This document shows positions 22,726 to 33,168 of a DNA stretch of 64,000 nucleotides, piece by piece. Positions within the stretch are counted from its first letter, which is position 1; each line of letters starts with the position of its first letter. This stretch comes from Mesorhizobium onobrychidis (GTDB lineage Bacteria > Pseudomonadota > Alphaproteobacteria > Rhizobiales > Rhizobiaceae). The DNA is taken from positions 1,364,001-1,428,000 of the forward strand of contig NZ_CP062229.1 of the NCBI RefSeq assembly GCF_024707545.1, read 5' to 3'. Below the pieces are notes generated by a model. The model made no database searches. It had not been told where the DNA came from and saw only the letters and a program-made list of their open reading frames with translations. Position numbers and translations under genes: made by a program.

Positions 22726-23052
22726 TCATTGTTGGCTAAGAGAATCTTTTTTGGCGCGCGCGCCGTTCGAGGCAACCTCAAGGTTGGAAATCTCCACCGA
22801 AGCGTCGAGCGTGCCGTCCGGACGCACATTCCAGACGATCTGGTCGTAATCATCCTCAAGTGCCGGATCGACGGAAAGGCATTTGGCAATTATGCGCGGA
22901 GCCTGACCCTGCACATCGCTCAAGGCAAACGGCCGCGCGGCGGTGCATTCCTGAGCGGTTTCGAAAACGCTCACCGATACGGGCAGTTCGCGACACTCGG
23001 TCATCGCGTTCGAACAGCCAATGACCAGCAAGACGGCAGCGATGTGTTCCAT
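22726..23052 (-). CDS. Small exported protein under an EcfG-type promoter
   Basis: A 108-residue protein with a hydrophobic N-terminus (MEHIAAVLLVIGCSNAM) that could be a signal peptide; four cysteines follow or lie in it. The rest (CRELPVSVSVFETAQECTAA, DDYDQIVWNVRPDGTLDASV) matches no motif I know, but small rhizobial proteins of this composition are common. GGGAGGA eight bases before the ATG at 23052 supports the start. An EcfG promoter 24 bases upstream supports a role in the general stress response. Confidence 0.75.
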   Translation of the reverse strand: MEHIAAVLLVIGCSNAMTECRELPVSVSVFETAQECTAARPFALSDVQGQAPRIIAKCLSVDPALEDDYDQIVWNVRPDGTLDASVEISNLEVASNGARAKKDSLSQQ

Positions 23053-23075: not shown

Positions 23076-23100
23076 AACGGGCCACATTCATCAAAGTTCC
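23076..23100 (-). promoter_or_regulatory. EcfG-type (general stress response) promoter
   Basis: On the minus strand GGAAC, 16 bases, CGTT, located just upstream of the small exported protein gene ending at 22726. This is the published alphaproteobacterial EcfG consensus (GGAAC-N16/17-CGTT). Confidence 0.85.
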
Positions 23101-23268
23101 TGCGATGCAGGCTGGCGCGCGACTGATTGGAGAACAGGTCGACATGAGGCAAGCACAAGCCGCCGGCCACTTTGGGTCCGACGCTTTAAATTTTTATGCA
23201 TGTCGTTATCGCAAAACCGCTGCACACCCTCGGGTCAGGCCCGAGGGCATGCTTTTGCGCTACATGCA

Positions 23269-23451
23269 TTAGATCAACTGGAACGCGGCGGCCAGGACGA
23301 CCACTGCGGCCAGCCCGATTGCGGCGAGGCCGGGGGTCGGGAGGGAAGCACGGGGCGACGGCATCGCGGATGCTTCGAGATCCTGAAACCCGCCCATCGA
23401 AACGCGTGCGGCCTGTTCCAGCCTGTTGATGTCGGCAACCGTCAAAGCCAT
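23269..23451 (-). CDS. Small single-pass membrane protein, possible
   Basis: A 60-residue frame: a short hydrophilic head (ALTVADINRLEQAARVSMGG), a Ser/Pro linker and a C-terminal hydrophobic helix (GLAAIGLAAVVVLAAAF). GGGAGGA lies one base before the ATG, too close, but at correct distance before the TTG codon two positions on (23445), which may be the true start. No homologue is recognised. Confidence 0.4.
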   Translation of the reverse strand: MALTVADINRLEQAARVSMGGFQDLEASAMPSPRASLPTPGLAAIGLAAVVVLAAAFQLI

Positions 23452-23610
23452 TCCTCCCGTACTGCGCAGCAGACTGCGATCGAAAACGTCATGCTGTGCC
23501 TGGAAAAAACAGCATCGGACTTTATGGTGAACAGATGGTTAAGCCGGCGCGGCCGGTATCGATCCCCAGCCCTCTTGGCCCCTGCTCTCTTGGGCTCGGC
23601 TGCTGTCCGT

Positions 23611-24645
23611 TCAATCCGTCTCGAAATTGCCGCGAGGAACGACAAGACGATATTCGAGGCGGTCCCCGGTGATTTCAAGTGTCGCCGTACCGTTCAACGA
23701 CGCAGGCACGACGCGCTCGAGCGCGACGCTGCCAAAACGCTTCTCACTGGGCTGATTGTCATTGGCTCCGATGGCTTCGGCCCATGTCAGCGATAGGGCG
23801 GTCTCGCCAGCGGAAGCGGCCGTCAGATCGGCCGTCACTTCGACGAATCCGTCGGCTCGCGACAGAGCGCCGTAGCTGACCGAATTGACGGCAAGCTCAT
23901 GCATGGCCAAGCCGATATGCAGGGCGGCATTGGGGTTGAGGTACGGATTCGCACCCTGGAAACGCAAGCTGCGGACGGGGTCGGCTCCATAGCGGCCGAC
24001 CTGGCCGGACACGAGTTCGCGCAGTGCCGCTCCCCGCCAGTTCGACGAGGTCACCAGGTCCTGGGATGAGGCAAGCGACTGCAGCCGGCCGCGAAAGCGT
24101 GTCAGGAAATCACCGAGCGTGTCCGAATAACGGCTGGTCTGGGTGGCGATGCTCTGGATGATTGCCAAAAGGTTCTTTGAGCGGTGGCTGACCTCGCGCA
24201 GCAGCGTCTTCAGGGTCTGCTCGCGACGTTTCTGCTCGGTCGTTTCGACCATGGTGGTGACGATGCCCTGTACGGCGCCGCCGCCGTCGCGATCCGCGTC
24301 TACCCATACCTGAAACCAGCGGACGCCATCGTCGGCGGGAATGCTGAGCTCAAGATGTTCCGGATTGCCGGATGCGACGACGTTGCGTTTGGCTGCACCA
24401 ATACGCTCCGCCTGCGCCAGCGGCAGGATGCCGTTGCTGTCGGCCGTATCGGAAGCCCATGGCGGGCGCATGTTGCGGGCCCAGACGGTTTTCATCTCGC
24501 GATCCTGATAGAGAACCGAAATGCCGGCATTGTGCAGCGCATGGAGAAGGGCCCGGCCAAGCTGCATTCCACTCTCAGCGGACTGCAAAGCGATGATCTC
24601 ATCGCTCCGTCCGCTGTCTTTCATGTCTCCGGCTCTGGATTGCAT
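23611..24645 (-). CDS. Soluble HWE-family histidine kinase with PAS domain
   Basis: A 344-residue kinase with no membrane helix. Residues ~25-140 form a PAS-like sensor (LLHALHNAGISVLYQDREMK, ending IVTTMVETTEQKRREQ). The H-box is LLREVSHRSKNLLAIIQSIA; the N-box is AMHELAVNSVSYGA; the HWE-type Trp-x-Glu is LTWAEA. Such kinases often act on PhyR. The start at 24645 is provisional: a second ATG lies at 24624. An EcfG promoter directly upstream would give positive feedback. Confidence 0.9.
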   Translation of the reverse strand: MQSRAGDMKDSGRSDEIIALQSAESGMQLGRALLHALHNAGISVLYQDREMKTVWARNMRPPWASDTADSNGILPLAQAERIGAAKRNVVASGNPEHLELSIPADDGVRWFQVWVDADRDGGGAVQGIVTTMVETTEQKRREQTLKTLLREVSHRSKNLLAIIQSIATQTSRYSDTLGDFLTRFRGRLQSLASSQDLVTSSNWRGAALRELVSGQVGRYGADPVRSLRFQGANPYLNPNAALHIGLAMHELAVNSVSYGALSRADGFVEVTADLTAASAGETALSLTWAEAIGANDNQPSEKRFGSVALERVVPASLNGTATLEITGDRLEYRLVVPRGNFETD

Positions 24646-24674
24646 CGTTCACTTCACCCGCCCAATGCAGGCTG

Positions 24675-24699
24675 AACGGCTGACGGAAAAATGGGTTCC
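24675..24699 (-). promoter_or_regulatory. EcfG-type promoter of the PAS-HWE kinase
   Basis: Minus-strand GGAAC, 16 bases, CGTT, ending about 30 bases before the kinase start at 24645. Confidence 0.85.
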
Positions 24700-24794
24700 C
24701 AAAAGAGGTCCGCCGAGCGACGTCCCGTAAGGACTCCGCCCGGCGGTAGCTGGAAACCGCTTGAGGGGTGCGGCTCCCAGTGTTCGATCGCAGT

Positions 24795-24962
24795 TCACGA
24801 CGCGCGTTTGAACAAGCCCGCGATAAGCGAAATGATCAGGAAAGCGAGAAAGATGAAAAACAGTATCTGCGCTATACCGGCCGAGGTGCCGGCGATACCG
24901 CCGAAACCAAGAGCGCCTGCAATGATCGCGACGACGAGAAATACGAGCGCCCAGTAAAGCAT
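24795..24962 (-). CDS. DUF1328-family small membrane protein
   Basis: A 55-residue protein with two hydrophobic helices ([20 protein letters not shown] and [19 protein letters not shown]) around a glycine-rich turn ([12 protein letters not shown]). This pattern is that of the short DUF1328/YtjA membrane proteins. Function is unknown but the family is often stress-linked. AAGGAGATGGATC precedes the ATG, a good ribosome site, and an EcfG promoter lies upstream. Confidence 0.9.
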
Positions 24963-24991
24963 GATCCATCTCCTTCAAATGGTACGGCAAA

Positions 24992-25016
24992 AACGTCTTT
25001 CGCTACCGTTTGTTCC
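24992..25016 (-). promoter_or_regulatory. EcfG-type promoter of the DUF1328 gene
   Basis: Minus-strand GGAAC, 16 bases, CGTT, 30 bases before the ATG at 24962. The leader contains AAGGAG at the correct distance. Confidence 0.88.
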
Positions 25017-25196
25017 ACCATTTCCCGAAAAAGACGATCCCTGGAAATCTTTCCGGCCCGAATTGAATCGTCATGCGCAGGGGGAAGTTCGAGGCGCAAG
25101 TGACGTTTGCCAGCCGCAAGCGGCCAGCATCATTCGATCAGTGGGAAAACGGGCGATCCGTGGAACGGGGCAGCGCGAGGCTGGGCCTGCCCGGTC

Positions 25197-25991
25197 CTAT
25201 GCAGCGGCTTTCGCATGCCGGTCGAAGAACAGCGCCTGGCTGATCAGGGCCTTGACCATATCCGGATTGAACGGCTTGGTGACGAGGAAGGCCGGCTCCG
25301 GCCGCTCGCCGGTCAGGAGGCGCTCGGGAAAGGCGGTGATGAAGATCACCGGCACCGGCGTGGACGACAGGATCTCGTTCACCGCTTCGATGCCCGAGCT
25401 GCCGTCGGCAAGCTGGATGTCGGCCAGCACCATCTTCGGCCGCGTCTTTGTGAACATCGCCACCGCCTCGGCGTGGGTACGCGCAGTTCCGACAACGCGA
25501 TGGCCCAGGCTTTCGACCATTTGCTCGATGTCCATGGCGATCAGCGGCTCGTCCTCGATGATCAGCACATCGGTTGCCACCTGGCGGGAAATCTCGTTGC
25601 TGGCCTCGGCGAGAAGTTCGGAGAACTCCTGATCGTCGACGTCGAGAATCTCCGCCGCCTCGTCTTCGCTGAAACCTTCGACGGCGACCAGCAGGAAGGC
25701 TTGGCGGGGACGGGGTGAGATCGCGTTCAGATTGGCGGCAGCGCGCTGTTCCCACGCCGACTGCGGGTGTTCTTGCGGAACGCGGATGGCGACCGAGGTG
25801 AACAGCCTGGCGAAGACCTTGTAGAGCGCGATGCGGTCGTTCGACGCGTCCGGAAAGATGTCGATGTCGGCGATGATTGCTTCGAGCATCGCGGCGACCA
25901 GCGCGTCGCCACTCTCCTGCGATCCGGAAACGGCCCGCGAGAAGCGGCGCAGGAACGGCAGGTGCGGAGCGATGGTTGCGGATAGGCTCAT
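25197..25991 (-). CDS. phyR: General stress response regulator PhyR (sigma-like anti-anti-sigma factor)
   Basis: A 264-residue protein with the diagnostic two-part build. Residues 1-~130 mimic an ECF sigma factor (regions sigma2/sigma4: AFLLVAVEGFSEDEAAEILD), and residues ~135-260 form a receiver with acidic pair DVLIIEDEPLIAM, phospho-acceptor Asp in MVLADIQLADG, Thr in IFITAF and Lys in LVTKPFN. On phosphorylation it binds NepR and releases EcfG. The ATG at 25991 is used; an upstream in-frame start exists at 26021. It is divergent from nepR-ecfG and has its own EcfG promoter. Confidence 0.96.
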   Translation of the reverse strand: MSLSATIAPHLPFLRRFSRAVSGSQESGDALVAAMLEAIIADIDIFPDASNDRIALYKVFARLFTSVAIRVPQEHPQSAWEQRAAANLNAISPRPRQAFLLVAVEGFSEDEAAEILDVDDQEFSELLAEASNEISRQVATDVLIIEDEPLIAMDIEQMVESLGHRVVGTARTHAEAVAMFTKTRPKMVLADIQLADGSSGIEAVNEILSSTPVPVIFITAFPERLLTGERPEPAFLVTKPFNPDMVKALISQALFFDRHAKAAA

Positions 25992-26073
25992 GATGGACGT
26001 CTCCCTCTGACGTGATTGCATAAATTGCAGGCCAAGCTAATCACACCCCCCGAAAATAAGCCCTGGAAACCTA

Positions 26074-26098
26074 AACGCCGGCTTTCCGAAAAAGTTCC
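26074..26098 (-). promoter_or_regulatory. EcfG-type promoter of phyR
   Basis: Minus-strand GGAAC, 16 bases, CGTT. It lies back to back with the nepR-ecfG promoter, so both arms of the switch are autoregulated by EcfG. Confidence 0.9.
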
Positions 26099-26106
26099 GA
26101 TGGTTT

Positions 26107-26131
26107 GGAACTAATATAAGAGGACGGCGTT
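26107..26131 (+). promoter_or_regulatory. EcfG-type promoter of nepR-ecfG
   Basis: GGAAC, 16 bases, CGTT, starting nine bases from the phyR promoter and 98 bases before nepR. Confidence 0.92.
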
Positions 26132-26228
26132 TGAGGTCGGGACGGGCAACCAGACGAGGGGACCGCCTGCCTTGCGTCGTGTATTGAAGGGCGGCAGGGG
26201 TACTGGGAACAAAGGGCGAAATGAAGAC

Positions 26229-26423
26229 ATGACGAAAGATACCACGGCTGGTGCTGCAAACAGGCGCCGGGCTGCTTCCGGCGACCCGCTCGGGCCAAAC
26301 TCGGAAATCGGCCGCAAACTCAAACAATATTACGACGAGCTGATCTCCGACAACGTGCCGGATCGCTTCGCCCAATTGCTTAGCCAGTTGGAACAGGCCC
26401 AACCTGCACGGAAAAAGGACTGA
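26229..26423 (+). CDS. nepR: Anti-sigma factor NepR
   Basis: A 64-residue protein. The conserved NepR helix region is EIGRKLKQYYDELISDNVPD followed by RFAQLLSQLEQAQ; this pair of helices clamps EcfG. The N-terminus is a disordered, basic stretch. The ATG at 26229 is preceded by a usable site (AATGAAGAC); a longer frame upstream is not conserved in kind. Its stop is three bases from the ecfG start, so the two are translationally coupled. Confidence 0.95.
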   Translation: MTKDTTAGAANRRRAASGDPLGPNSEIGRKLKQYYDELISDNVPDRFAQLLSQLEQAQPARKKD

Positions 26424-26426
26424 GGC

Positions 26427-26978
26427 ATGGCCGCCGTCTCCCAGAGCTTCAAGACGGATCTGCTCGGCTCGATTCCGAGCCTGCGGGCCTTTGCCGTGTC
26501 ATTGACGCAAAACGCCGACAAGGCCGACGATCTGGTGCAGGAAACGCTGGTGAAGGCCTGGGACAAGCATGAAAGCTTCGAGCCAGGCACCAATCTCAAG
26601 GCATGGCTGTTCACCATCCTGCGCAATGAATTCTATTCGCAGATGCGCAAGCGCGGCCGCGAGGTGCAGGACAGCGACGGCATCATGACGGCCAGGCTAG
26701 CCGTCCATCCGGCCCAGCACGGCCAGCTCGACCTCAAGGACTTTCGCAGCGCGCTCGAGCAATTGCCCGAGGACCAGCGCGAAGCCATCATCCTTATCGG
26801 TGCGTCGGGCTTTTCCTACGAGGAAGCCGCCGAGATCTGCGGCTGCGCGGTCGGAACGATCAAGAGCCGCGTCAGCCGCGCCCGCACGCGGCTGCAGGAA
26901 ATCCTGAAGATTTCCGGCGATGACGAGTTTGGCCCGGATGCAATCTCGGCTCAGGTGACGGGGTCGAACGCCGCCTGA
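26427..26978 (+). CDS. ecfG: General stress ECF sigma factor EcfG (RpoE2-like)
   Basis: A 183-residue ECF15-type sigma factor. Region 2 is LTQNADKADDLVQETLVKAWD with the core-binding helix, then NLKAWLFTILRNEFYSQMRK; region 4 is LPEDQREAIILIGASGFSYE and AEICGCAVGTIKSRVSRART, which reads the -35 GGAAC. It directs the promoters listed in this region. It is encoded with NepR, opposite phyR. Confidence 0.96.
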   Translation: MAAVSQSFKTDLLGSIPSLRAFAVSLTQNADKADDLVQETLVKAWDKHESFEPGTNLKAWLFTILRNEFYSQMRKRGREVQDSDGIMTARLAVHPAQHGQLDLKDFRSALEQLPEDQREAIILIGASGFSYEEAAEICGCAVGTIKSRVSRARTRLQEILKISGDDEFGPDAISAQVTGSNAA

Positions 26979-27032
26979 ATACGGATCACCGGTAATATGG
27001 GCCCCGGTAGTACCGGCGCCGGTCTTCGGACA

Positions 27033-27413
27033 TCAAACAAGAGGGCCGCGCCCGCACGCCGCCGCCACTGCCTGCACGAGATCGTCTCCCGAATAAGGCT
27101 TGGTGACCAATCTGATATCCGGAAAGGACACCTTGATTTCGTCCATGTCGGAATAGCCCGAGGCGAAGACGAAAGGCACGCCCGATTCGCGCAGCCGCGA
27201 AGCGAAATCGAGCGTCGAAGCGCCGCCCAGCATGAGGTCGACGATGGCTGCGTCGAATTGCGAGGCAACGCTCTTCCGATCGATCTCACCCAGATCGCGG
27301 GCGATGATCACGTCGCCGGCGCCATAGTCGCGGCAAAGCTGCTCGACATCCATGGCGATGAGGAATTCATCCTCCAAAACAAGAATCCGCAATCCGTCAA
27401 GCAAGGGTGGCAC
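27033..27413 (-). CDS. Single-domain response regulator of the FATGUY type
   Basis: A 126-residue receiver with no output domain. The acidic pair is LRILVLEDEFLIAM, phospho-acceptor Asp is in AAIVDLMLGGAS, and Lys is in RLVTKPYS. The segment VPFVFASGYSD matches the FAT-GUY motif (PFxFATG) of stress-linked single-domain regulators such as SdrG and MrrA (named from the literature), which pass phosphate between kinases and PhyR. The start is GTG at 27413; no ribosome site is strong. It is convergent with ecfG. Confidence 0.9.
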   Translation of the reverse strand: MPPLLDGLRILVLEDEFLIAMDVEQLCRDYGAGDVIIARDLGEIDRKSVASQFDAAIVDLMLGGASTLDFASRLRESGVPFVFASGYSDMDEIKVSFPDIRLVTKPYSGDDLVQAVAAACGRGPLV

Positions 27414-27706
27414 GTGGCAATGTCTCCGTGGAGCGCGGGGAAAGGGGAAGCGCAGGGAACAGAGGAGTCATGACCTCTATTTGGCTTCCTGTCATCTAAA
27501 GTTATTTGGCATCCTGTCATCTAAAAAAGACATGCCCGTCGCGGACGACGGAATTTCGATCCTTCAACGAGACGATCCGAAAGCTCAACCCGCTGGGAGG
27601 GTTGAGCGAGGGTCGCCGGCCGCTGATCTGGCGCCGGTCCCGGGATGTTTGGGTCGGGCTGGACTCATACGCGGAAACACCCTTTCATGGACCTCATTCC
27701 GATTTC
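27414..27706. other. Intergenic region with a duplicated motif
   Basis: No gene is supported. It contains the 25-bp period direct repeat at 27479-27525 and, at its right edge, the EcfG promoter of the DUF883 gene. Confidence 0.6.
27479..27525. repeat. 22-bp direct repeat, 25-bp period
   Basis: ATTTGGCTTCCTGTCATCTAAA (27479-27500) and ATTTGGCATCCTGTCATCTAAA (27504-27525) differ at one base. It lies between the divergent response regulator and DUF883 genes and could be a tandem binding site. CTGTCAT inside it recalls a PhoB half-site but the spacing is wrong. Confidence 0.85.
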
Positions 27707-27731
27707 GGAACCTTGGCGTGTATCGAGCGTT
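27707..27731 (+). promoter_or_regulatory. EcfG-type promoter of the DUF883/YqjE-like pair
   Basis: GGAAC, 16 bases, CGTT, 29 bases before the ATG at 27760. Confidence 0.88.
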
Positions 27732-27759
27732 TGGAGCCAAGCAAGCAAGGAGTTGAGCA

Positions 27760-28086
27760 ATGGCGACTGCCGCAGGAAAGGCCGCGAATGCAAGCCGGGC
27801 GGATTCGGATCTCGAGGCCGACATCAGGCAATTGAAAGCCGATATTGAAAAACTCACCAAGCAATTGGCCAAGACCGGTGAGCATGGTTACGGGACGGCC
27901 CGCCGCGCCGCGACCGAAGGTGTCGAGCAATTGCGCGCCCAGGGCGAAGCAGCCTTCGACACCCTGCGCAGCAACGCCAAGGACATCGAAGCGCAAGTGG
28001 CGGCGAGCGTGCGCGAAAAGCCGGTGACGTCGCTGGCAATCGCGGCAGGCGTCGGCTTTCTGTTCGCGCTTCTCGCGCGCCGCTAG
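27760..28086 (+). CDS. DUF883/ElaB/YqjD-family membrane-anchored protein
   Basis: A 108-residue protein: a long helical region with coiled-coil character (LEADIRQLKADIEKLTKQLA, ending with AAFDTLRSNAKDIEAQVAAS), then a C-terminal membrane helix (PVTSLAIAAGVGFLFALLAR). This is the ElaB/YqjD/DUF883 architecture; members anchor ribosomes to the membrane in stationary phase in E. coli. AAGGAG precedes the ATG. It is stress-inducible through the EcfG promoter and probably co-transcribed with the next gene. Confidence 0.88.
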   Translation: MATAAGKAANASRADSDLEADIRQLKADIEKLTKQLAKTGEHGYGTARRAATEGVEQLRAQGEAAFDTLRSNAKDIEAQVAASVREKPVTSLAIAAGVGFLFALLARR

Positions 28087-28097
28087 CCTCAGCCCAG

Positions 28098-28562
28098 ATG
28101 GGAATGCTGGCATCGTTGATCTCGGGCCTCGCCTCGGGTGAAGCCGTTGCAGCCGTGCGGCGCGCGCGCACGGCTGCAATCGTCTATGCGCTCGCAGCAC
28201 TTGCCGCACTGTGCGGCGTCGGTTTCCTCGTCGGAGCCGCCTATGTCTGGGTGGCGGGTCACTACGGGCCGATAGCAGCCTGCCTTGGTTTCGGGCTCGG
28301 TTTCCTGGTGATCGCAGGGCTCCTCCTGCTCATCCATCAGCTGTCGGCCGGCGCGCGCGCCCGACGCCGGGCGCGGAGGCGCCAAGCAGATATGAAAGCG
28401 GTCGGCATCACGGCCGCGCTCGCCGTGCTGCCGGCGCTACTCAAGGGGAAAGGCGGCCTGGGCACCCTACTCGGCCCAGCGATCGCACTCGCTGCCTATG
28501 CCATCTACCGCGAGAACGTGAAGCCGGGCGCGGGCGATCCGGACGCGGGCGAATCGAAGTGA
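28098..28562 (+). CDS. YqjE/holin-like membrane protein
   Basis: A 154-residue membrane protein with helices around AAIVYALAALAALCGVGFLV and GPIAACLGFGLGFLVIAGLL, a strongly basic loop (SAGARARRRARRRQADMK) and a C-terminal stretch. A YqjE-like membrane protein next to a DUF883 protein reproduces the yqjD-yqjE pairing of enterobacteria. It follows the DUF883 stop by 11 bases, so the two form one unit. Confidence 0.8.
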   Translation: MGMLASLISGLASGEAVAAVRRARTAAIVYALAALAALCGVGFLVGAAYVWVAGHYGPIAACLGFGLGFLVIAGLLLLIHQLSAGARARRRARRRQADMKAVGITAALAVLPALLKGKGGLGTLLGPAIALAAYAIYRENVKPGAGDPDAGESK

Positions 28563-28589
28563 GTTGAAGCGAAATGAGCCTGGCGGCCG

Positions 28590-30140
28590 TCACTTCGGCA
28601 GATCCTCCAGCGGCATCGATATTTCGGCGAACACGCCTTCCGGCCGGAATTCGTGGGTCACTTCGCTGGAGATGACCTTGGCCAGGCTGCGGCGGATCAG
28701 GATCGAGCCGAAGCCGTGGCGTTCGGGCGAGGCAACTTCAGGCCCGCCGCTTTCGCGCCAGGTCAGCACCAGGCGCCGTGCGCCTTTCCCGCCCTGTGCC
28801 TTCCAGTCGAGATCGACCTTGCCCGAAGCCGCCGACAGCGCTCCGTATTGCAGCGCGTTGCTCCCCAGTTCATGCAAGATCAGGCCGAGCCCGACTGCCT
28901 GGTCGGGCGAAAGCAGCAGATCGGCGCCCGAGATCGTCATGCGCGGCTGTCCGGCGGTGTCGAACGGCTTGACTTCGATCTGCACGAGTTCGCGAATGCC
29001 GATGCCGCGCCACTCGCGGTCGGACAGCAGGCTGTGAGCGGCGCCCAACGCCTGAAGCCTGGCGCTGAAGGCTTCGAGGAAATCGCTCGGCTGGCGGGCA
29101 TGGCGAACGGTCTGCGTCGCCAACGCCTGCACGGTCGCCAGCGTGTTCTTGACGCGATGGTTCAGCTCGCGCAGCAGGAGCCGTTGCCGCTCGTCGCCGA
29201 GCTTGCGTTCGGTGATGTCGTAATTGACGCCGAAGATCAGCGTCGGCTTGCCGTCGGCATCGCGCTCGATGACACGGCCGCGCGTAGCGAGCCAGCGCGG
29301 CGGACTGAAGCCCTTGACGCGGTATTCGCCAAAATAGTCGTCGCCGCCGGTCAGCGCGTCGCGAAAGCGCGTCTCGGTCTGGTAGACATCGCGCGGGTCG
29401 ATGGCGGCAAGGATATCGCGCGCCCTCAGCCGGTTTGAGCGCGGCAGATCGAACAGCTCCGACAACCGGACATCGCATTCGATCGTGTCGGTGTGGATGT
29501 CCCATGCCCAACTGGCGAGCGAGGCGGCATCGAGCGCGATGCCGCGCCGCTTTTCCTCGCGCGCCAGCGCCGCTGCGGCGCTGGCGCCGTTGCGGGTGGC
29601 GTCCTTCAATGCGAACAGGCTGGCGGCGAGGATGGCGAGCGCCGTCAATTGTTCGAGCTGGGCGGCAGACGGGGACGCGCGCGGCTTCCGGTCGAGCACG
29701 CAGAGTGTGCCGATGCGGGCGCCGGCCACCACAATCGCCGCACCCGCATAGAAACGGACATGGTGCTGGCCAGTGACCAGGGGGCTGGCGCTGAAACGTG
29801 GATCCGCGATCGCATCGTTCACCACCATCGGCTCGTCGCCGGCGGCAATGGCGTGGGCGCAGAAAGACGTATCGGTCGCCGCCTCGGTCTCATCCAGGCC
29901 GACACTGGATTTGTACCATTGCCGCTCGACGTCGAGCAGCGTGACGAGCGCGATAGGCGCCTGCATCACCGCGGCGGCAAGAGCACTGATATGGTCGAAG
30001 TCGGGATCGGCTGCCGTGCCGAGTGCATCGAGACCGTGGAGTACGGCAAGCCGATCCTGCGCCCTTACCACGCCAAGGACATCGACCGGCAGATTCGGCT
30101 TTATCTCTACCCTGCTATCCACAAGCCCCCCAAAATGCAT
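28590..30140 (-). CDS. Soluble HWE histidine kinase with GAF and PAS domains
   Basis: A 516-residue kinase. Residues ~30-170 form a GAF domain (PIALVTLLDVERQWYKSSVG, ending IGTLCVLDRKPR), residues ~190-315 a PAS domain (FGEYRVKGFSPPRWLATRGR, ending VNYDITERKLGDE). The H-box is LLRELNHRVKNTLATVQALA, the N-box LILHELGSNALQYGALS, and the W-x-E motif LTWRESG. Soluble multi-sensor HWE kinases of this kind feed PhyR. No EcfG promoter was found upstream, unlike the other kinase at 23611. Confidence 0.9.
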   Translation of the reverse strand: MHFGGLVDSRVEIKPNLPVDVLGVVRAQDRLAVLHGLDALGTAADPDFDHISALAAAVMQAPIALVTLLDVERQWYKSSVGLDETEAATDTSFCAHAIAAGDEPMVVNDAIADPRFSASPLVTGQHHVRFYAGAAIVVAGARIGTLCVLDRKPRASPSAAQLEQLTALAILAASLFALKDATRNGASAAAALAREEKRRGIALDAASLASWAWDIHTDTIECDVRLSELFDLPRSNRLRARDILAAIDPRDVYQTETRFRDALTGGDDYFGEYRVKGFSPPRWLATRGRVIERDADGKPTLIFGVNYDITERKLGDERQRLLLRELNHRVKNTLATVQALATQTVRHARQPSDFLEAFSARLQALGAAHSLLSDREWRGIGIRELVQIEVKPFDTAGQPRMTISGADLLLSPDQAVGLGLILHELGSNALQYGALSAASGKVDLDWKAQGGKGARRLVLTWRESGGPEVASPERHGFGSILIRRSLAKVISSEVTHEFRPEGVFAEISMPLEDLPK

Positions 30141-30186
30141 CGGCTTGCAGCCCTTCGCGCTAGGCCAGTTGCCTGGCTCCGAAACC

Positions 30187-30211
30187 GGAACCTTCGCCTT
30201 GAGGAACCGTT
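30187..30211 (+). promoter_or_regulatory. EcfG-type promoter of the small membrane protein gene
   Basis: GGAAC, 16 bases, CGTT, 57 bases before the ATG at 30269. Confidence 0.85.
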
Positions 30212-30268
30212 ACCCAACCACGTTTTGCCAGCCGCGCCCGTCGGCGCCAAACGATATGGAGGCTGATC

Positions 30269-30469
30269 ATGCCCAAGATCGTTCCTGAAAACAAAGCCCG
30301 CCAGGGACGCTGGGGGTGGCACACTTTCCGTATCTTGATCGCGGCGCTGCTGTTGGCGTTTATCGCCTGGGGCATCGCGGAGATTTACGGCAACATGATA
30401 GACAAGACGTCGACAACCGAACAGGGCGAGCTTCCCAGGAACGAACAGGGCGAGATTCCCAAAGGCTAA
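30269..30469 (+). CDS. Small single-pass membrane protein, stress-induced
   Basis: A 66-residue protein: basic head, one membrane helix (FRILIAALLLAFIAWGIAEI), then a Glu/Gln-rich tail in which NEQGEIPKG and TEQGELPR are near repeats. GGAGG six bases before the ATG supports it. The EcfG promoter suggests envelope stress. No function is known to me. Confidence 0.8.
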   Translation: MPKIVPENKARQGRWGWHTFRILIAALLLAFIAWGIAEIYGNMIDKTSTTEQGELPRNEQGEIPKG

Positions 30470-30498
30470 AGCCTTCCGATCGACTGTGCCGGGATGCA

Positions 30499-31461
30499 TC
30501 AAGCGGCCTTTGCTTGGACAGCGCGCGCCGGGACGAGAACGTTCAGCGCGCCAGGGTGGATTTCAATTGTCGTTTCGCGGTCAAGCCCGACCAGTTCGCC
30601 ATCCATGACGGCGCGGAATTTCTTCGCTGCCGAGTGGACTTTCAAAACGGCCCGGTCGGCCTGGTGAATTTCCACGTGCTCACTGTCGCGCCATTTGCCG
30701 CGTGCCATGTCGAAGAGGACCCTGACCAGTTCGCCACGCCGCCGCGCCACCGTGACATAGATGCCGAGCACGCCGCCGGCGGGATTGTCGGCATAGGGCA
30801 GATGACCCTCACCGAACAGATTGTTGGTGATGCCGATGCCGGTGGTGCGCGTCACGATCTCGGCTTCGCCGATGGTCAGCGTCACCTTCATTGCCGACGG
30901 GTTGTTGATCGCTGCCCAGGCAGCCTTCACTGAAGCCCGCATCTTTCCCAACCGCGAGCCAAATTCCATGGCCTGGCGAAGCTGAACCATCCTGGCATGC
31001 ATGCCGATCGAGAACTGATGCACGAATGGCCTGCCGTTGGCGGTTGCCATATCGACTGCGATCACCTCGCCGTCGGCAAAGGATTCCACGGCCGCGTCCA
31101 GGGTCTGTGGGATGCCGAGCCCGCGCGCGAACAGGTTCATCGTGCCAGCCGGCAAAATGGCAAGTGCCTTCTTCCTGCCCATCAACCGAGCCGCTGCGGC
31201 CGAAATGGTGCCGTCGCCGCCGCCGGCCAGCACAATGTCGACGCTGTGCTTCGAAGCGATGCGGTCCAGCGTTGCGACGATGTCCTTGCCGGCAACGATG
31301 TCGATATCGATGGAGTGACCTGCTGCCTCCAACGTCTGGCGCATCCGGTCCGTGAAGGCGGAAAGATCAATCGTACGCAGGGTGCCGCCCTCCTGGTTCA
31401 GCACCGCCGCAAATCGCATCCCCCCGCTCCGTTTTTTCTTGCCAACCATTTGGATAATCAT
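30499..31461 (-). CDS. Diacylglycerol/lipid-kinase-family protein
   Basis: A 320-residue DAGK-catalytic-fold protein with the nucleotide loop DIVLAGGGDGTISAAAARL and the following PAGTMNLFARGLGI (the P-x-G-T-x-N-x-x-A signature). Members phosphorylate diacylglycerol, sphingosine or other lipids, using a magnesium-bound ATP. The exact lipid is not predictable. Starts at 31461, 31449 or 31419 are possible; the last has GGAG upstream. An EcfG promoter lies 30 bases before the first start, so the gene belongs to the stress regulon. Confidence 0.87.
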   Translation of the reverse strand: MIIQMVGKKKRSGGMRFAAVLNQEGGTLRTIDLSAFTDRMRQTLEAAGHSIDIDIVAGKDIVATLDRIASKHSVDIVLAGGGDGTISAAAARLMGRKKALAILPAGTMNLFARGLGIPQTLDAAVESFADGEVIAVDMATANGRPFVHQFSIGMHARMVQLRQAMEFGSRLGKMRASVKAAWAAINNPSAMKVTLTIGEAEIVTRTTGIGITNNLFGEGHLPYADNPAGGVLGIYVTVARRRGELVRVLFDMARGKWRDSEHVEIHQADRAVLKVHSAAKKFRAVMDGELVGLDRETTIEIHPGALNVLVPARAVQAKAA

Positions 31462-31490
31462 CGGCCAGGACAGACCCAGCCCGAGGCTGG

Positions 31491-31515
31491 AACGGGGCGG
31501 CTGAAAAAAAGTTCC
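31491..31515 (-). promoter_or_regulatory. EcfG-type promoter of the lipid-kinase gene
   Basis: Minus-strand GGAAC, 16 bases, CGTT. Confidence 0.87.
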
Positions 31516-31610
31516 GCAGCTCTGACGAAAATACAGGAGCGAATCTCACCGGCCGAACGCATGATTGAGCGCGATTCGGGTGGTTTTTTCACGATGCTCG
31601 CCGTGGTGTC

Positions 31611-31635
31611 GGAACAACGGCGCGGTCACGACGTT
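31611..31635 (+). promoter_or_regulatory. EcfG-type promoter of the PRC-barrel gene
   Basis: GGAAC, 16 bases, CGTT, 76 bases before the ATG at 31711. It is divergent from the lipid-kinase promoter. Confidence 0.87.
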
Positions 31636-31710: not shown

Positions 31711-33168
31711 ATGATGATCCGCACCCTTTTAACCACCACCGCACTGGCAGCGTTGATTGCGACCGGTGCGTATGCGCAGGAGGCCACAACCCCGGCGCCG
31801 ACGCAGGACCCGGCAGTTCAGGATACAGCTCCGGCAGCTCCCGTTGCGCGCGCCGAGGGCAGCTTGGTAACCAACATCGTCGGTGAATCTGTCTATAATG
31901 GCACAGGCGACGATGCCGAGAACATCGGTAATGTCAGTGATGTCGTCTTCGATGAAAACGGTCAGGCGAAATCCGTCGTTATCGGTGTCGGCGGCTTTCT
32001 TGGCGTCGGCGCCAAGAATGTCACTTTCGACTACAGCAAGTTGGAATGGGCCGAACGGAATGGCGACCGCTGGCTGATTGCCAAAACCACAAAGGATGAG
32101 TTGACGGCTCAGCCGGACTTCGACCGCAAGCCCTATGATCCGGCTCCTGCGGCCACCGACACCACGGCTACGGCTCCTCCAGCCCCTTCTGGCACGACCG
32201 ATACCACCGCACAGAACGCTCCGGCGGCTCCGGTCGAACCGGTTCCGGCCGAACCCGTGAAGCGTGCCGACGGTAACCTTGCCACCAATATCATCGGCGA
32301 AAACGTCTACAACGGCACTGGCGACGACGCTCAAAACATCGGTGACGTGAACGACATCGTCCTGGCCAAGGATGGCAAGGCCGAGTCGCTGATCATTGGC
32401 GTCGGCGGCTTCCTTGAGATTGGCGAAAAGAATGTCGCCTATCAGTTCGACAAGGCCAAGTGGGCGGAGAGGGATGGCGATCGCTGGCTAGTGGCCGAGA
32501 CCACGAGAGAGGATCTGGAGGCGCTGCCGGAGTTCGACCGCAGGCCCTATGATCCCGCCCCGGCGACTACCGCATCGACTGACGCGGCGACGCCGGCGCC
32601 GGTGACCACGACCCCTGCTGTCACTCCAACCCCGGCGGAGAAGACCGCGGAAGCTCCGGCGGCAACGCCTGAACCCGCTGCTCCGGCACCGGCGGACAAG
32701 ACCGCGGAAGCCCCTGCGGCAACGCCTGACACCGCTGCTCCGGCTCCAATGGACAAGACAGCCGAGGCTCCGGCTGCAGCAACGCCTGACGCAACACCCG
32801 ACCAGACACAGACCGCGGCGATCGACAAGTCGGCGCTGACCGAAATGCCGGTCGACAAAATCCGGTCCGAGGATTTGGTTGGAACCACCGTCTATGGCGC
32901 TAATGATGTCAACGTCGGTGAGATTGGTGACGTCGTGCTGACGGGCGACAAGAAGGTCGATGCCGTCATCATCGACGTCGGCGGTTTCCTTGGCGTTGGC
33001 GAGAAGGAGGTGGCGATCGGCATGGATAACCTGAAATTCATGACCGACAAGGATGGCAAGCGCTATCTCTACACGAGCTTCACCAAGGAGCAGTTCGAGG
33101 CGCAGGCGCCTTATGACAAGGGCACATATACGCAAAACCGCGACACACAGCGCATGATCATGCGGTAG
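31711..33168 (+). CDS. Exported protein with three PRC-barrel domains and Ala/Pro-rich linkers
   Basis: A 485-residue protein with signal peptide (IRTLLTTTALAALIATGAYA, cleavage after AYA). Three PRC-barrel repeats follow: the first near residues 50-140, the second at ~190-280 and the third at ~385-470. Each has an ENIGNVSDVV-like strand and a GVGGFLGVGxKxV loop (VIGVGGFLGVGAK, IIGVGGFLEIGEK, VIDVGGFLGVGEK). The linkers are rich in Ala, Pro and Thr, with DKTAEAPAATP-type repeats. PRC-barrels are usually RNA- or partner-binding; here export suggests an envelope role. GAGGAGG before the ATG and an EcfG promoter support stress expression. Confidence 0.9.
   Translation: MMIRTLLTTTALAALIATGAYAQEATTPAPTQDPAVQDTAPAAPVARAEGSLVTNIVGESVYNGTGDDAENIGNVSDVVFDENGQAKSVVIGVGGFLGVGAKNVTFDYSKLEWAERNGDRWLIAKTTKDELTAQPDFDRKPYDPAPAATDTTATAPPAPSGTTDTTAQNAPAAPVEPVPAEPVKRADGNLATNIIGENVYNGTGDDAQNIGDVNDIVLAKDGKAESLIIGVGGFLEIGEKNVAYQFDKAKWAERDGDRWLVAETTREDLEALPEFDRRPYDPAPATTASTDAATPAPVTTTPAVTPTPAEKTAEAPAATPEPAAPAPADKTAEAPAATPDTAAPAPMDKTAEAPAAATPDATPDQTQTAAIDKSALTEMPVDKIRSEDLVGTTVYGANDVNVGEIGDVVLTGDKKVDAVIIDVGGFLGVGEKEVAIGMDNLKFMTDKDGKRYLYTSFTKEQFEAQAPYDKGTYTQNRDTQRMIMR

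Follow-up and report, generated by a model that had tools for sequence, protein, structure and literature searches.

An island of EcfG-type promoters around phyR and nepR-ecfG in Mesorhizobium onobrychidis includes two candidate small stress proteins

Genes and predicted promoters at the locus

The stretch of Mesorhizobium onobrychidis DNA analyzed here, referred to as the window, is 64,000 nucleotides long. It contains the following genes and predicted EcfG promoters (window coordinates; fractions give the relatives or orthologues in which a promoter is present).

22726..23052, minus strand: 108-aa orphan small protein (sp108), starting MEHIAA
23076..23100, minus strand: promoter of the 108-aa gene (66/68)
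23611..24645, minus strand: HWE histidine kinase (PF07536, 83.6 bits)
24675..24699, minus strand: promoter of the HWE kinase gene (54/78)
24795..24962, minus strand: DUF1328 small membrane protein, 55 aa (PF07043, 60.2 bits)
24992..25016, minus strand: promoter of the DUF1328 gene (79/80)
25197..25991, minus strand: phyR, response regulator anti-anti-sigma factor (PF22233, PF22029 and PF00072, above gathering)
26074..26098, minus strand: promoter of phyR (79/80)
26107..26131, plus strand: promoter of nepR-ecfG (77/80)
26229..26423, plus strand: nepR, anti-sigma factor (PF18557, 55.2 bits versus gathering 25.7)
26427..26978, plus strand: ecfG, sigma factor (Sigma70_r2 and r4_2)
27033..27413, minus strand: single-domain response regulator (PF00072)
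27707..27731, plus strand: promoter of the DUF883-like gene (78/78)
27760..28086, plus strand: DUF883-like protein, 108 aa (PF19029 and PF05957, both below gathering)
28098..28562, plus strand: membrane protein with weak Phage_holin_3_6 (YqjE-like) similarity (17.7 bits)
28590..30140, minus strand: GAF-PAS-HWE kinase (domain search)
30187..30211, plus strand: promoter of the 66-aa gene (62/67, Mesorhizobium group)
30269..30469, plus strand: 66-aa orphan protein (sp66) with one hydrophobic stretch
30499..31461, minus strand: YegS/diacylglycerol-kinase-type lipid kinase (PF00781, 74.4 bits)
31491..31515, minus strand: promoter of the lipid kinase gene (64/67)
31611..31635, plus strand: promoter of the triple PRC-barrel gene (73/73)
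31711..33168, plus strand: exported-looking protein with three PRC-barrel stretches (PF05239, 111.1 bits)

The identities of phyR, nepR and the sigma factor gene, proposed in an initial annotation, were borne out by Pfam. PhyR also scored 389.9 bits against NF006623 (cut-off, 240); NepR stayed below the NCBIfam equivalog NF051865 (24.3 versus a cut-off of 100), and a TTG start of nepR was rejected as a gene model. The best PDB sequence match of the sigma factor was 5uxx_A (E = 3.4e-74), which we take to be a Bartonella EcfG-type factor with NepR; because of this presumed identity and the operon with nepR, we assign the sigma factor to the EcfG type. The genes show the PhyR-NepR-EcfG arrangement, with divergent phyR and nepR-ecfG and a GGAAC-N16/17-CGTT promoter on both, and the −35 boxes of the two promoters lie back to back, 8 bp apart. 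As proof of selection, the constancy of this gap was weakened by a rough estimate that the Mesorhizobium indel rates in the neighboring leader suffice for so short a stretch. The ecfG gene lacks a separate promoter within 250 nt upstream, and none of 79 orthologues had a site.

Nine EcfG-type motifs in the window and the genome

A spacer scan of the 64-kb window found nine GGAAC-N16-CGTT sites, all at 23 to 31.6 kb and exactly where the initial annotation had placed them. Every site lies on the strand facing a gene, its GGAAC and CGTT boxes 16 bases apart, and spacers of 14, 15, 17 or 18 bases did not occur in the window. Among spacers of 8 to 28 bases, N16 accounted for 9 matches and the other 20 spacers together for 17 (mean, 0.85). 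With N15-18 allowed, the window held 9 matches compared to a mean of 2.16 in shuffled sequence, and 0 of 100 shuffles reached 9. The motif is identical to the consensus given in the available parts of the reports on Rhizobium etli and Sphingopyxis granuli, and by this likeness the nine sites are predicted to represent the established EcfG (ECF15) general stress promoter. Between CGTT and the start codon, the distance is 23 nt for the 108-aa gene, 28 nt for the DUF883-like gene, 29 nt for the HWE kinase and DUF1328 genes, 57 nt for the 66-aa gene, 75 nt for the PRC-barrel gene, 82 nt for phyR and 97 nt for nepR. For the lipid kinase it is 29 nt, or 71 nt with an internal ATG; the true start may lie at 31419.

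The whole genome (7.55 Mb) contains 98 N16 sites. In the comparison with the chance rate that the initial annotation had called for, 0.10 sites would be expected in the 8.56-kb island from the other 89, and 9 were found; the densest stretches of equal length elsewhere held 3 at most. Just upstream of a called gene lay 56 of the 98 sites, compared to 20 of 508 random positions. A further 31 (29 outside the island) were called coding by an imperfect heuristic, which also called two true island sites coding (108-aa and PRC-barrel genes), and no gene followed another 11; sites of these two kinds are probably mostly chance matches. Genome-wide, N15-18 matches numbered 274. A reversed-pattern control (499 versus 274 matches) was not composition-matched and was left out of the argument.

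Conservation of the sites and length of the spacer

In 80 related loci, the first genes of the nine units had an N16 or N17 site within 250 nt upstream in 632 of 671 orthologues, whereas eight neighboring control genes had one in 1 of 542; these loci belong to close relatives, and their counts are not independent. The spacer sequences differ among relatives (23 to 63 distinct ones per promoter at N16 sites). The list of served genes in the initial annotation was thus upheld in that the sites are kept before the same genes and the control genes lack them. The fixed 16-base spacer holds within the window (9/9) but was rejected as a functional constraint, since orthologous promoters alternate between 16 and 17 bases: N17 spacers made up 86 of the 706 sites with either length in the related loci and 65 of the 302 in 60 wider loci, and N16 and N17 were found 30 and 36 times, respectively, before the 108-aa gene and 43 and 21 times before the lipid kinase gene.

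The wider loci contained 237 N16 and 65 N17 sites, compared to 5 to 25 for each of the other 19 spacers. With up to one mismatch, sites preceded 44 of 44 DUF1328, 42 of 48 DUF883-like, 48 of 60 phyR and 37 of 51 nepR genes in the wider set, where control-spacer means for these genes and the 108-aa gene were 2.6 to 6.4. For the PRC-barrel protein, extrapolation of the gene start gave a site in 4 of 25 cases; it misplaces the start, as the domains align internally, and was replaced by a locus count (26 sites in 26 loci). On average, about five N16 or N17 sites surround phyR in the 60 loci of other genera. This shows that the island is part of a wider phenomenon: across genera, EcfG-type promoters and their genes tend to collect around the EcfG control locus.

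Effector genes, kinases and a response regulator

The DUF883 and YqjE-like labels of the initial annotation did not stand. PF19029 (25.1 versus 27 bits) and PF05957 (21.5 versus 25.4 bits) stayed below gathering, so the first protein is called DUF883-like only; for a visually chosen paralogue, Pfam gave no DUF883 match. ElaB of the enterobacteria is presumably a DUF883 protein. The second protein did not reach the gathering score of Phage_holin_3_6 (28.4). Its gene has no site of its own (0/78 orthologues) and is probably cotranscribed from the DUF883-like promoter. Some of the 78 HWE kinase orthologues may be paralogous kinases; outside Mesorhizobium, 9 exact sites were found before this gene, and 16 of 44 genes had a site with up to one mismatch (control, 4.2). 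The single-domain response regulator (0/79 orthologues) and the GAF-PAS-HWE kinase (0/47) lack EcfG sites.

Two orphan small proteins with conserved promoters

The conserved sites upstream of the 108-aa and 66-aa genes sustain the earlier proposal that both proteins are likely new regulon members. In sp66, an RQG motif is invariant in 23 aligned sequences. Outside Mesorhizobium, an exact site preceded its gene in 3 of 24 cases and one with up to one mismatch in 14 of 24 (control, 3.2). Regulon membership of sp66 is therefore supported in the Mesorhizobium group and more weakly outside. A paralogous ECF sigma factor of overlapping specificity could be the main reader of some sites, especially those of the 66-aa and HWE kinase genes, and EcfG paralogues are indeed described in the available literature on R. 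etli, Methylobacterium and Sphingopyxis; however, the sites adjoin this ecfG and have one consensus in common with phyR and nepR-ecfG, which makes this reading improbable.

The sp108 protein reached no Pfam or NCBIfam family, and a profile search of solved-structure sequences gave no match. Of 81 genomes of the bacterial family, 48 encode it, and in 27 of 35 loci its gene lies on the phyR strand, 0.4 to 2.2 kb downstream of phyR. Within 200 nt upstream, 24 of the wider loci had an exact site and 33 of 35 one with up to one mismatch (control spacers, 3.0); within 90 nt, 23 had an exact site, 9 a one-mismatch site and 3 no site (n = 35). Of the 23 exact sites, 20 have the end of CGTT 21 to 29 nt upstream of the ATG, and in 21 the −35 box starts 46 to 60 nt upstream of it. 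The start MEH is invariant in 39 hand-picked aligned sequences and recurs in 30 of the 35 wider loci; in-frame starts inside or above the promoter were rejected as gene models. With a conserved consensus promoter directly upstream, membership of sp108 in the general stress response (GSR) regulon is strongly supported.

At the two small genes, a real motif might serve another transcript, a small or antisense RNA, with the open reading frames as passengers or miscalled. A precedent is the EcfG1-dependent 88-nt RNA ReC64, located downstream of phyR-tcrY in R. etli and called non-coding in the available part of the report. Both frames, however, show purifying selection (dN/dS medians of 0.16 over 51 pairs for sp108 and of 0.23 over the 50 sp66 pairs with finite dS; orthologues 60 to 97% identical), and the start and promoter distance of sp108 are kept as described above, so that we regard this explanation as very improbable. 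The idea that ReC64 is itself the mRNA of the 108-aa gene was weakened, as the named phyR-kinase-108-aa loci are from Mangrovicella, Aurantimonas and Mangrovibrevibacter, not Rhizobium. The genome-wide N15-18 count lies near the approximately 255 scaled up from the shuffled window, which speaks for a chance cluster of a short motif in GC-rich DNA; this reading is rejected as practically nil by the N16-only sites, the cluster density (Poisson, 3e-15) and the conservation compared to control genes and control spacers. Judged from promoters and their conservation, it is very probable that the two small proteins are part of the stress response.

The 39 aligned sp108 sequences share four invariant cysteines, and structure prediction yields a small alpha/beta fold (mean pLDDT, 74), as might be expected of a module that responds to redox state or metal. 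A tentative idea, which we consider rather unlikely, is that sp108 is an unnamed core GSR component of the family and takes part in, or acts upon, PhyR signaling instead of being a passenger effector.

A proposed self-amplifying regulon island

We are highly confident that the locus is the GSR control locus of a Mesorhizobium species, organized as a self-amplifying regulon island. Upon stress, an HWE kinase phosphorylates PhyR, which in its phosphorylated form sequesters NepR, and the EcfG released in this way guides RNA polymerase to GGAAC-N16/17-CGTT. EcfG would thereby raise its own regulators (phyR, nepR-ecfG and one HWE kinase) in one step, and the same step would raise six local effector units, namely, the DUF1328 gene, the DUF883-like/holin-like pair and the genes for the lipid kinase, the PRC-barrel protein, sp108 and sp66. 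EcfG dependence of the nine units is inferred from their promoter sequences, and the effectors are probably envelope- or protein-protective. In much of the family, sp108 would belong to the GSR genes, and sp66 would do so mainly in Mesorhizobium and close genera.

According to the available literature, the R. etli ecfG1, Sinorhizobium meliloti rpoE2 and S. granuli loci likewise have phyR divergent from nepR-ecfG with EcfG promoters on both, a kinase gene beside phyR and the GGAAC-N16-CGTT consensus. Unlike these, the Mesorhizobium locus packs, within 9 kb, another six effector units that each have an EcfG promoter, and the sp108 and sp66 families are not named in the accessible parts of that literature. 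New here are thus additional members of an already known regulon. PRC-barrel targets are described for S. meliloti RpoE2 (SMb20522, with a GGAAC-N16-CGTT promoter) and Sphingomonas melonis EcfG (#1478), with no sign of an adjoining sigma factor gene in the available text. In the enterobacterial RpoS regulon, DUF1328 (YtjA) and CsbD (YjbJ) appear in the accessible part of the Salmonella sigma-S table, and ElaB is described as RpoS-regulated; sigma factor and promoter differ there, so this is a parallel and not membership. In the accessible part of a heat shock microarray of M. loti MAFF303099, the top 50 genes include mll3685 (PRC-barrel, 6.08), mll3694 (regulator, 4.98), mlr3707 (hypothetical, 4.25) and mll3692 (hypothetical, 4.14), and the rpoE2-like mll3697 was induced 2.4. 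With tags mapped to genes by order, strand and size alone, mlr3707 would be the 108-aa gene, mll3692 one of the DUF883-like pair, mll3694 a Crp/Fnr gene and mll3685 the PRC-barrel gene, so that probable island genes are among the most heat-induced in M. loti.

Reading the motif thus yielded a gene list with two uncharacterised small protein families that carry conserved stress promoters, one of which, sp108, is spread over much of the bacterial family and tied to the phyR neighborhood. Since the EcfG locus gathers EcfG-type promoters across genera, neighborhood and promoter together offer a cheap finder of stress proteins without assigned function. By the heuristic used, this genome has about 49 more candidate units with the N16 motif beyond the island.

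Clustering of candidate EcfG promoters

The nine GGAAC-N16-CGTT sites claimed by the initial annotation were all recovered in place. When spacers of 8 to 28 were scanned over the whole window, N16 gave nine sites, all within 23-31.6 kb; the 20 other spacers gave 17 in total, and N14, N15, N17, N18 and N22 gave none. The window belongs to a 7.55-Mb genome of two contigs, which holds 98 N16 sites among 274 with spacers of 15-18, so that N15, N17 and N18 account for 176, about 59 each. A genome-wide comparison with chance, which the initial annotation had proposed, set the nine N16 sites in 8.56 kb against 0.10 expected from the 89 outside the island (Poisson, 3e-15); outside the island, no 8.56-kb stretch of the genome carried more than three.

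The proteins assigned by Pfam were PhyR, NepR, the ECF-type sigma factor, the HWE kinase, the DUF1328 protein, the receiver-only response regulator, the CHASE-HWE and GAF-PAS-HWE kinases, the glycine-zipper lipoprotein, the lipid kinase and the triple PRC-barrel protein. The DUF883/YqjE-like pair did not stand as a family assignment, and neither Pfam nor NCBIfam had a family for the 108-aa and 66-aa small proteins. Four island genes have no site of their own: those of the receiver-only regulator and the GAF-PAS-HWE kinase, the holin-like gene and ecfG. The last two follow closely behind promoter-bearing genes and are probably cotranscribed with them.

Selected features of the island
22726-23052, minus strand, gene of the 108-aa protein
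23269-23451, 60-aa open reading frame (ORF) lying between the genes of the 108-aa protein and the HWE kinase
26074-26131, phyR and nepR-ecfG promoters, back to back, 8 bp between the -35 boxes
27760-28562, DUF883-like and Phage_holin_3_6-like pair, similarity below Pfam gathering scores
30269-30469, plus strand, gene of the 66-aa protein

Conservation in related loci and other genera

The related set comprised the best 80 of at least 577 confirmed relatives, taken with as much as 10 kb of DNA to either side of phyR; the PhyR of the window is 100% identical to those of Mesorhizobium wenxiniae and M. temperatum, on which ground the window is assigned to Mesorhizobium. Gene positions came from tblastn, and a 250-nt stretch ahead of each start was scanned for N16/N17 sites. 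Such sites preceded the nine island genes in 632 of 671 gene-locus pairs and eight control genes, which lack a site in the window, in 1 of 542 (same scan; one sulfatase match at a contig edge was dropped), counts that are not independent, the 80 loci being related to one another. Since each promoter had 23 to 63 different spacer sequences (N16 sites), this conservation does not merely mirror overall identity. The spacer length, which had been described as fixed, varies: these loci contained 620 N16 and 86 N17 sites, against 4 to 70 for each of the other 19 spacers, and the 108-aa gene had N16 in 30 loci and N17 in 36.

Sites before genes (columns: related loci with N16/N17; sites in the wider-set cluster; wider loci with a site of at most one mismatch, control spacers in brackets)
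108-aa gene: 66/68; 25; 33/35 (3.0)
HWE kinase: 54/78; 9; 16/44 (4.2)
DUF1328 gene: 79/80; 40; 44/44 (6.4)
phyR: 79/80; 34; 48/60 (4.6)
nepR: 77/80; 19; 37/51 (2.6)
DUF883-like gene: 78/78; 36; 42/48 (6.0)
66-aa gene: 62/67; 6; 14/24 (3.2)
Lipid kinase: 64/67; 5; 10/25 (1.2)
PRC gene: 73/73; 26; 4/25 (1.2), start misplaced in this last scan
AI-2E-type transporter: -; 15; 17/23 (1.6)
CsbD: -; 10; -
Crp/Fnr: -; 6; 7/25 (1.2)
DUF3309: -; 3; -
Glycine-zipper (control): 1/71; 4; 7/24 (1.0)
Response regulator (control): 0/79; -; 10/60 (2.6)
ecfG (control): 0/79; -; 2/53 (3.0)
Holin-like gene (control): 0/78; -; 0/32 (1.0)
Sulfatase (control): 0/64; -; 0/7 (1.0)
CHASE-HWE kinase (control): 0/72, one N18; -; -
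GAF-HWE kinase (control): 0/47; -; -
60-aa ORF (control): 0/52, two N20; -; -

For the 60-aa ORF, tblastn gave a relative in 52 of the 80 loci; it has no N16/17 site, and its median dN/dS was 0.30 (range up to 1.5).

Among 81 genomes (80 genera) of the family labeled f1 in our survey, which we take to be Rhizobiaceae, PhyR was detected in 66 (E up to 1e-60), the 108-aa protein in 48 and the 66-aa protein in 41, some matches being weak scoring. A wider set of 60 loci, up to 20 kb around phyR, was drawn from 56 of these 66 genomes and four of other families in the order; the window's genome, a congener, three with the coordinates of related loci L066, L070 and L075, and genomes G154, G191, G220, G223 and G225 were excluded. 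It contained 237 N16 and 65 N17 sites (mean, 5.0 per locus), and the other 19 spacers gave 5 to 25 each. The proteins behind these sites were clustered and named by best match; clusters of one or two held 61 sites together, and the AI-2E, CsbD, Crp/Fnr and DUF3309 representatives scored above Pfam gathering. Sites with at most one mismatch within 200 nt were then compared with identically counted control spacers. Judged by these counts, the EcfG control locus recurrently gathers such candidate promoters, a broader tendency in which Mesorhizobium stands at the rich end.

In 54 of the 80 related loci (e.g., L001, position 8438), another N16/17 site lies in the interval from ecfG to the DUF883-like gene, mostly before a Crp/Fnr-type regulator gene. 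This regulator gene was full length in 57 of the 80, in pieces in 6 and not found in 17. It appears to have been lost from the window (27414-27706), where only a weak 21-residue match is left (27566-27628). An AI-2E-type transporter gene, common behind such sites in other genera, occurred in 6 of the 80; in L062, L065, L067, L070 and L075 it carries an N17 site and lies approximately at the position of the window's GAF-PAS-HWE kinase.

The two orphan small proteins

The conserved sites support the proposal that both orphans are likely members of the regulon. The 108-aa protein showed a median dN/dS of 0.16 (51 pairs, 60-97% identity), and 39 chosen orthologues share M1, E2, H3, cysteines 13, 20, 36 and 58, D62-P63-A64 and W74. 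Among 35 wider loci, 30 had the MEH start, and within 90 nt 23 had an exact site, 9 a one-mismatch site and 3 none (one of them masked); the distance from the end of CGTT to ATG was 21-29 nt in 20 of the 23. The gene lay on the strand of phyR, 0.4-2.2 kb downstream, in 27 and on the opposite strand in 5; an HWE kinase stood between it and phyR in 12 of 13 such loci inspected. The predicted model (mean pLDDT, 74; pTM, 0.62; residues 90-108 below 50) has the order strand-strand-helix-three strands. Because residues 6-13 are modeled as a strand, a simple lipoprotein signal seems less likely. The 66-aa protein (median dN/dS, 0.23; 50 pairs) has RQG and a hydrophobic stretch common to 23 chosen orthologues, and its database relatives with a name given were from Mesorhizobium.

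In Rhizobium etli, two reports describe ReC64, an EcfG1-dependent 88-nt RNA downstream of phyR-tcrY that is labeled noncoding and shows a larger transcript left unexplained (PMC3892343, PMC2881028). It occupies the position where other genera have the 108-aa gene; by this comparison, drawn from genera other than R. etli, ReC64 might be part of the 108-aa mRNA.

Back-to-back phyR and nepR-ecfG promoters

Both promoters were present in 76 of the 80 related loci, with gaps of 6-10 bp in 73 and of 18, 19 and 22 bp once each; the gap sequence was unconserved (64 distinct). In the 60 wider loci, both occurred in 13 (6-9 bp in 11, 19 bp in 2). When genomes were searched for N16 pairs standing back to back 0-30 bp apart, 87 of the 297 from the family had a match, as did 16 of the 385 from the class; the reversed pattern was matched in one genome of each set. 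Several of the 16 look like chance. At 75 family places among the matches listed, gaps were 2-5 bp in 3, 6-10 in 48, 11-17 in 5, 18-22 in 11 and 23-29 in 8. Eighteen of the listed matches are known to adjoin phyR (6-9 bp in 16, 19 bp in 2), and four do not (10, 16, 22 and 23 bp). Helical phasing of two polymerases is possible. The gaps suggest, but do not establish, that one helical face is preferred, since few genera supply the long ones.

Expression data and sites elsewhere in the genome

When M. loti MAFF303099 was exposed to heat shock (48°C, 30 min), mll3685 (PRC-barrel, 6.08, third), mll3694 (regulator, 4.98) and the hypothetical genes mlr3707 (4.25) and mll3692 (4.14) ranked among the 50 most strongly induced genes; the rpoE2-like mll3697 reached 2.4. 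Going by their order, strand and size, the first four are probably the PRC, Crp/Fnr and 108-aa genes and one of the DUF883-like/holin-like pair, respectively. The data concern heat induction, not EcfG dependence. Published work already describes the consensus with its 16-base spacer and autoregulation of both phyR and nepR-ecfG, and it counts genes for PRC-barrel and CsbD proteins among EcfG or RpoE2 targets. Titles and abstract openings listed in searches of the open-access literature for EcfG, candidate target families and six M. loti tags contained no description of the island as an EcfG island; one listed paper, PMC1557990, mentions mll3697 once.

A codon-usage heuristic sorted the 98 N16 sites: 56 were promoter-like, 31 fell in the coding class and 11 were intergenic with no gene called behind them. 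Of 508 random window positions outside the island, it classed 20 as promoter-like and 445 as coding. The 56 include seven island sites, the other two having been assigned to coding sequence; this leaves about 49 candidate promoters among the 89 sites outside. Of four proteins behind them that were compared with Pfam, three were DUF3606, DUF2267 and DUF1236; the fourth, DUF883-like by eye, had no match above gathering. Another looked by eye like a DNA ligase; the published EcfG regulon of Sphingopyxis granuli also includes csbD and ku-ligD. Two pairs of identical N16 sites were seen on contig C1 of the window's genome (G000), at 582393 and 598672 and at 3958244 and 4416337. The small genes that follow them are identical or nearly so, an indication that stress genes were duplicated in this genome.
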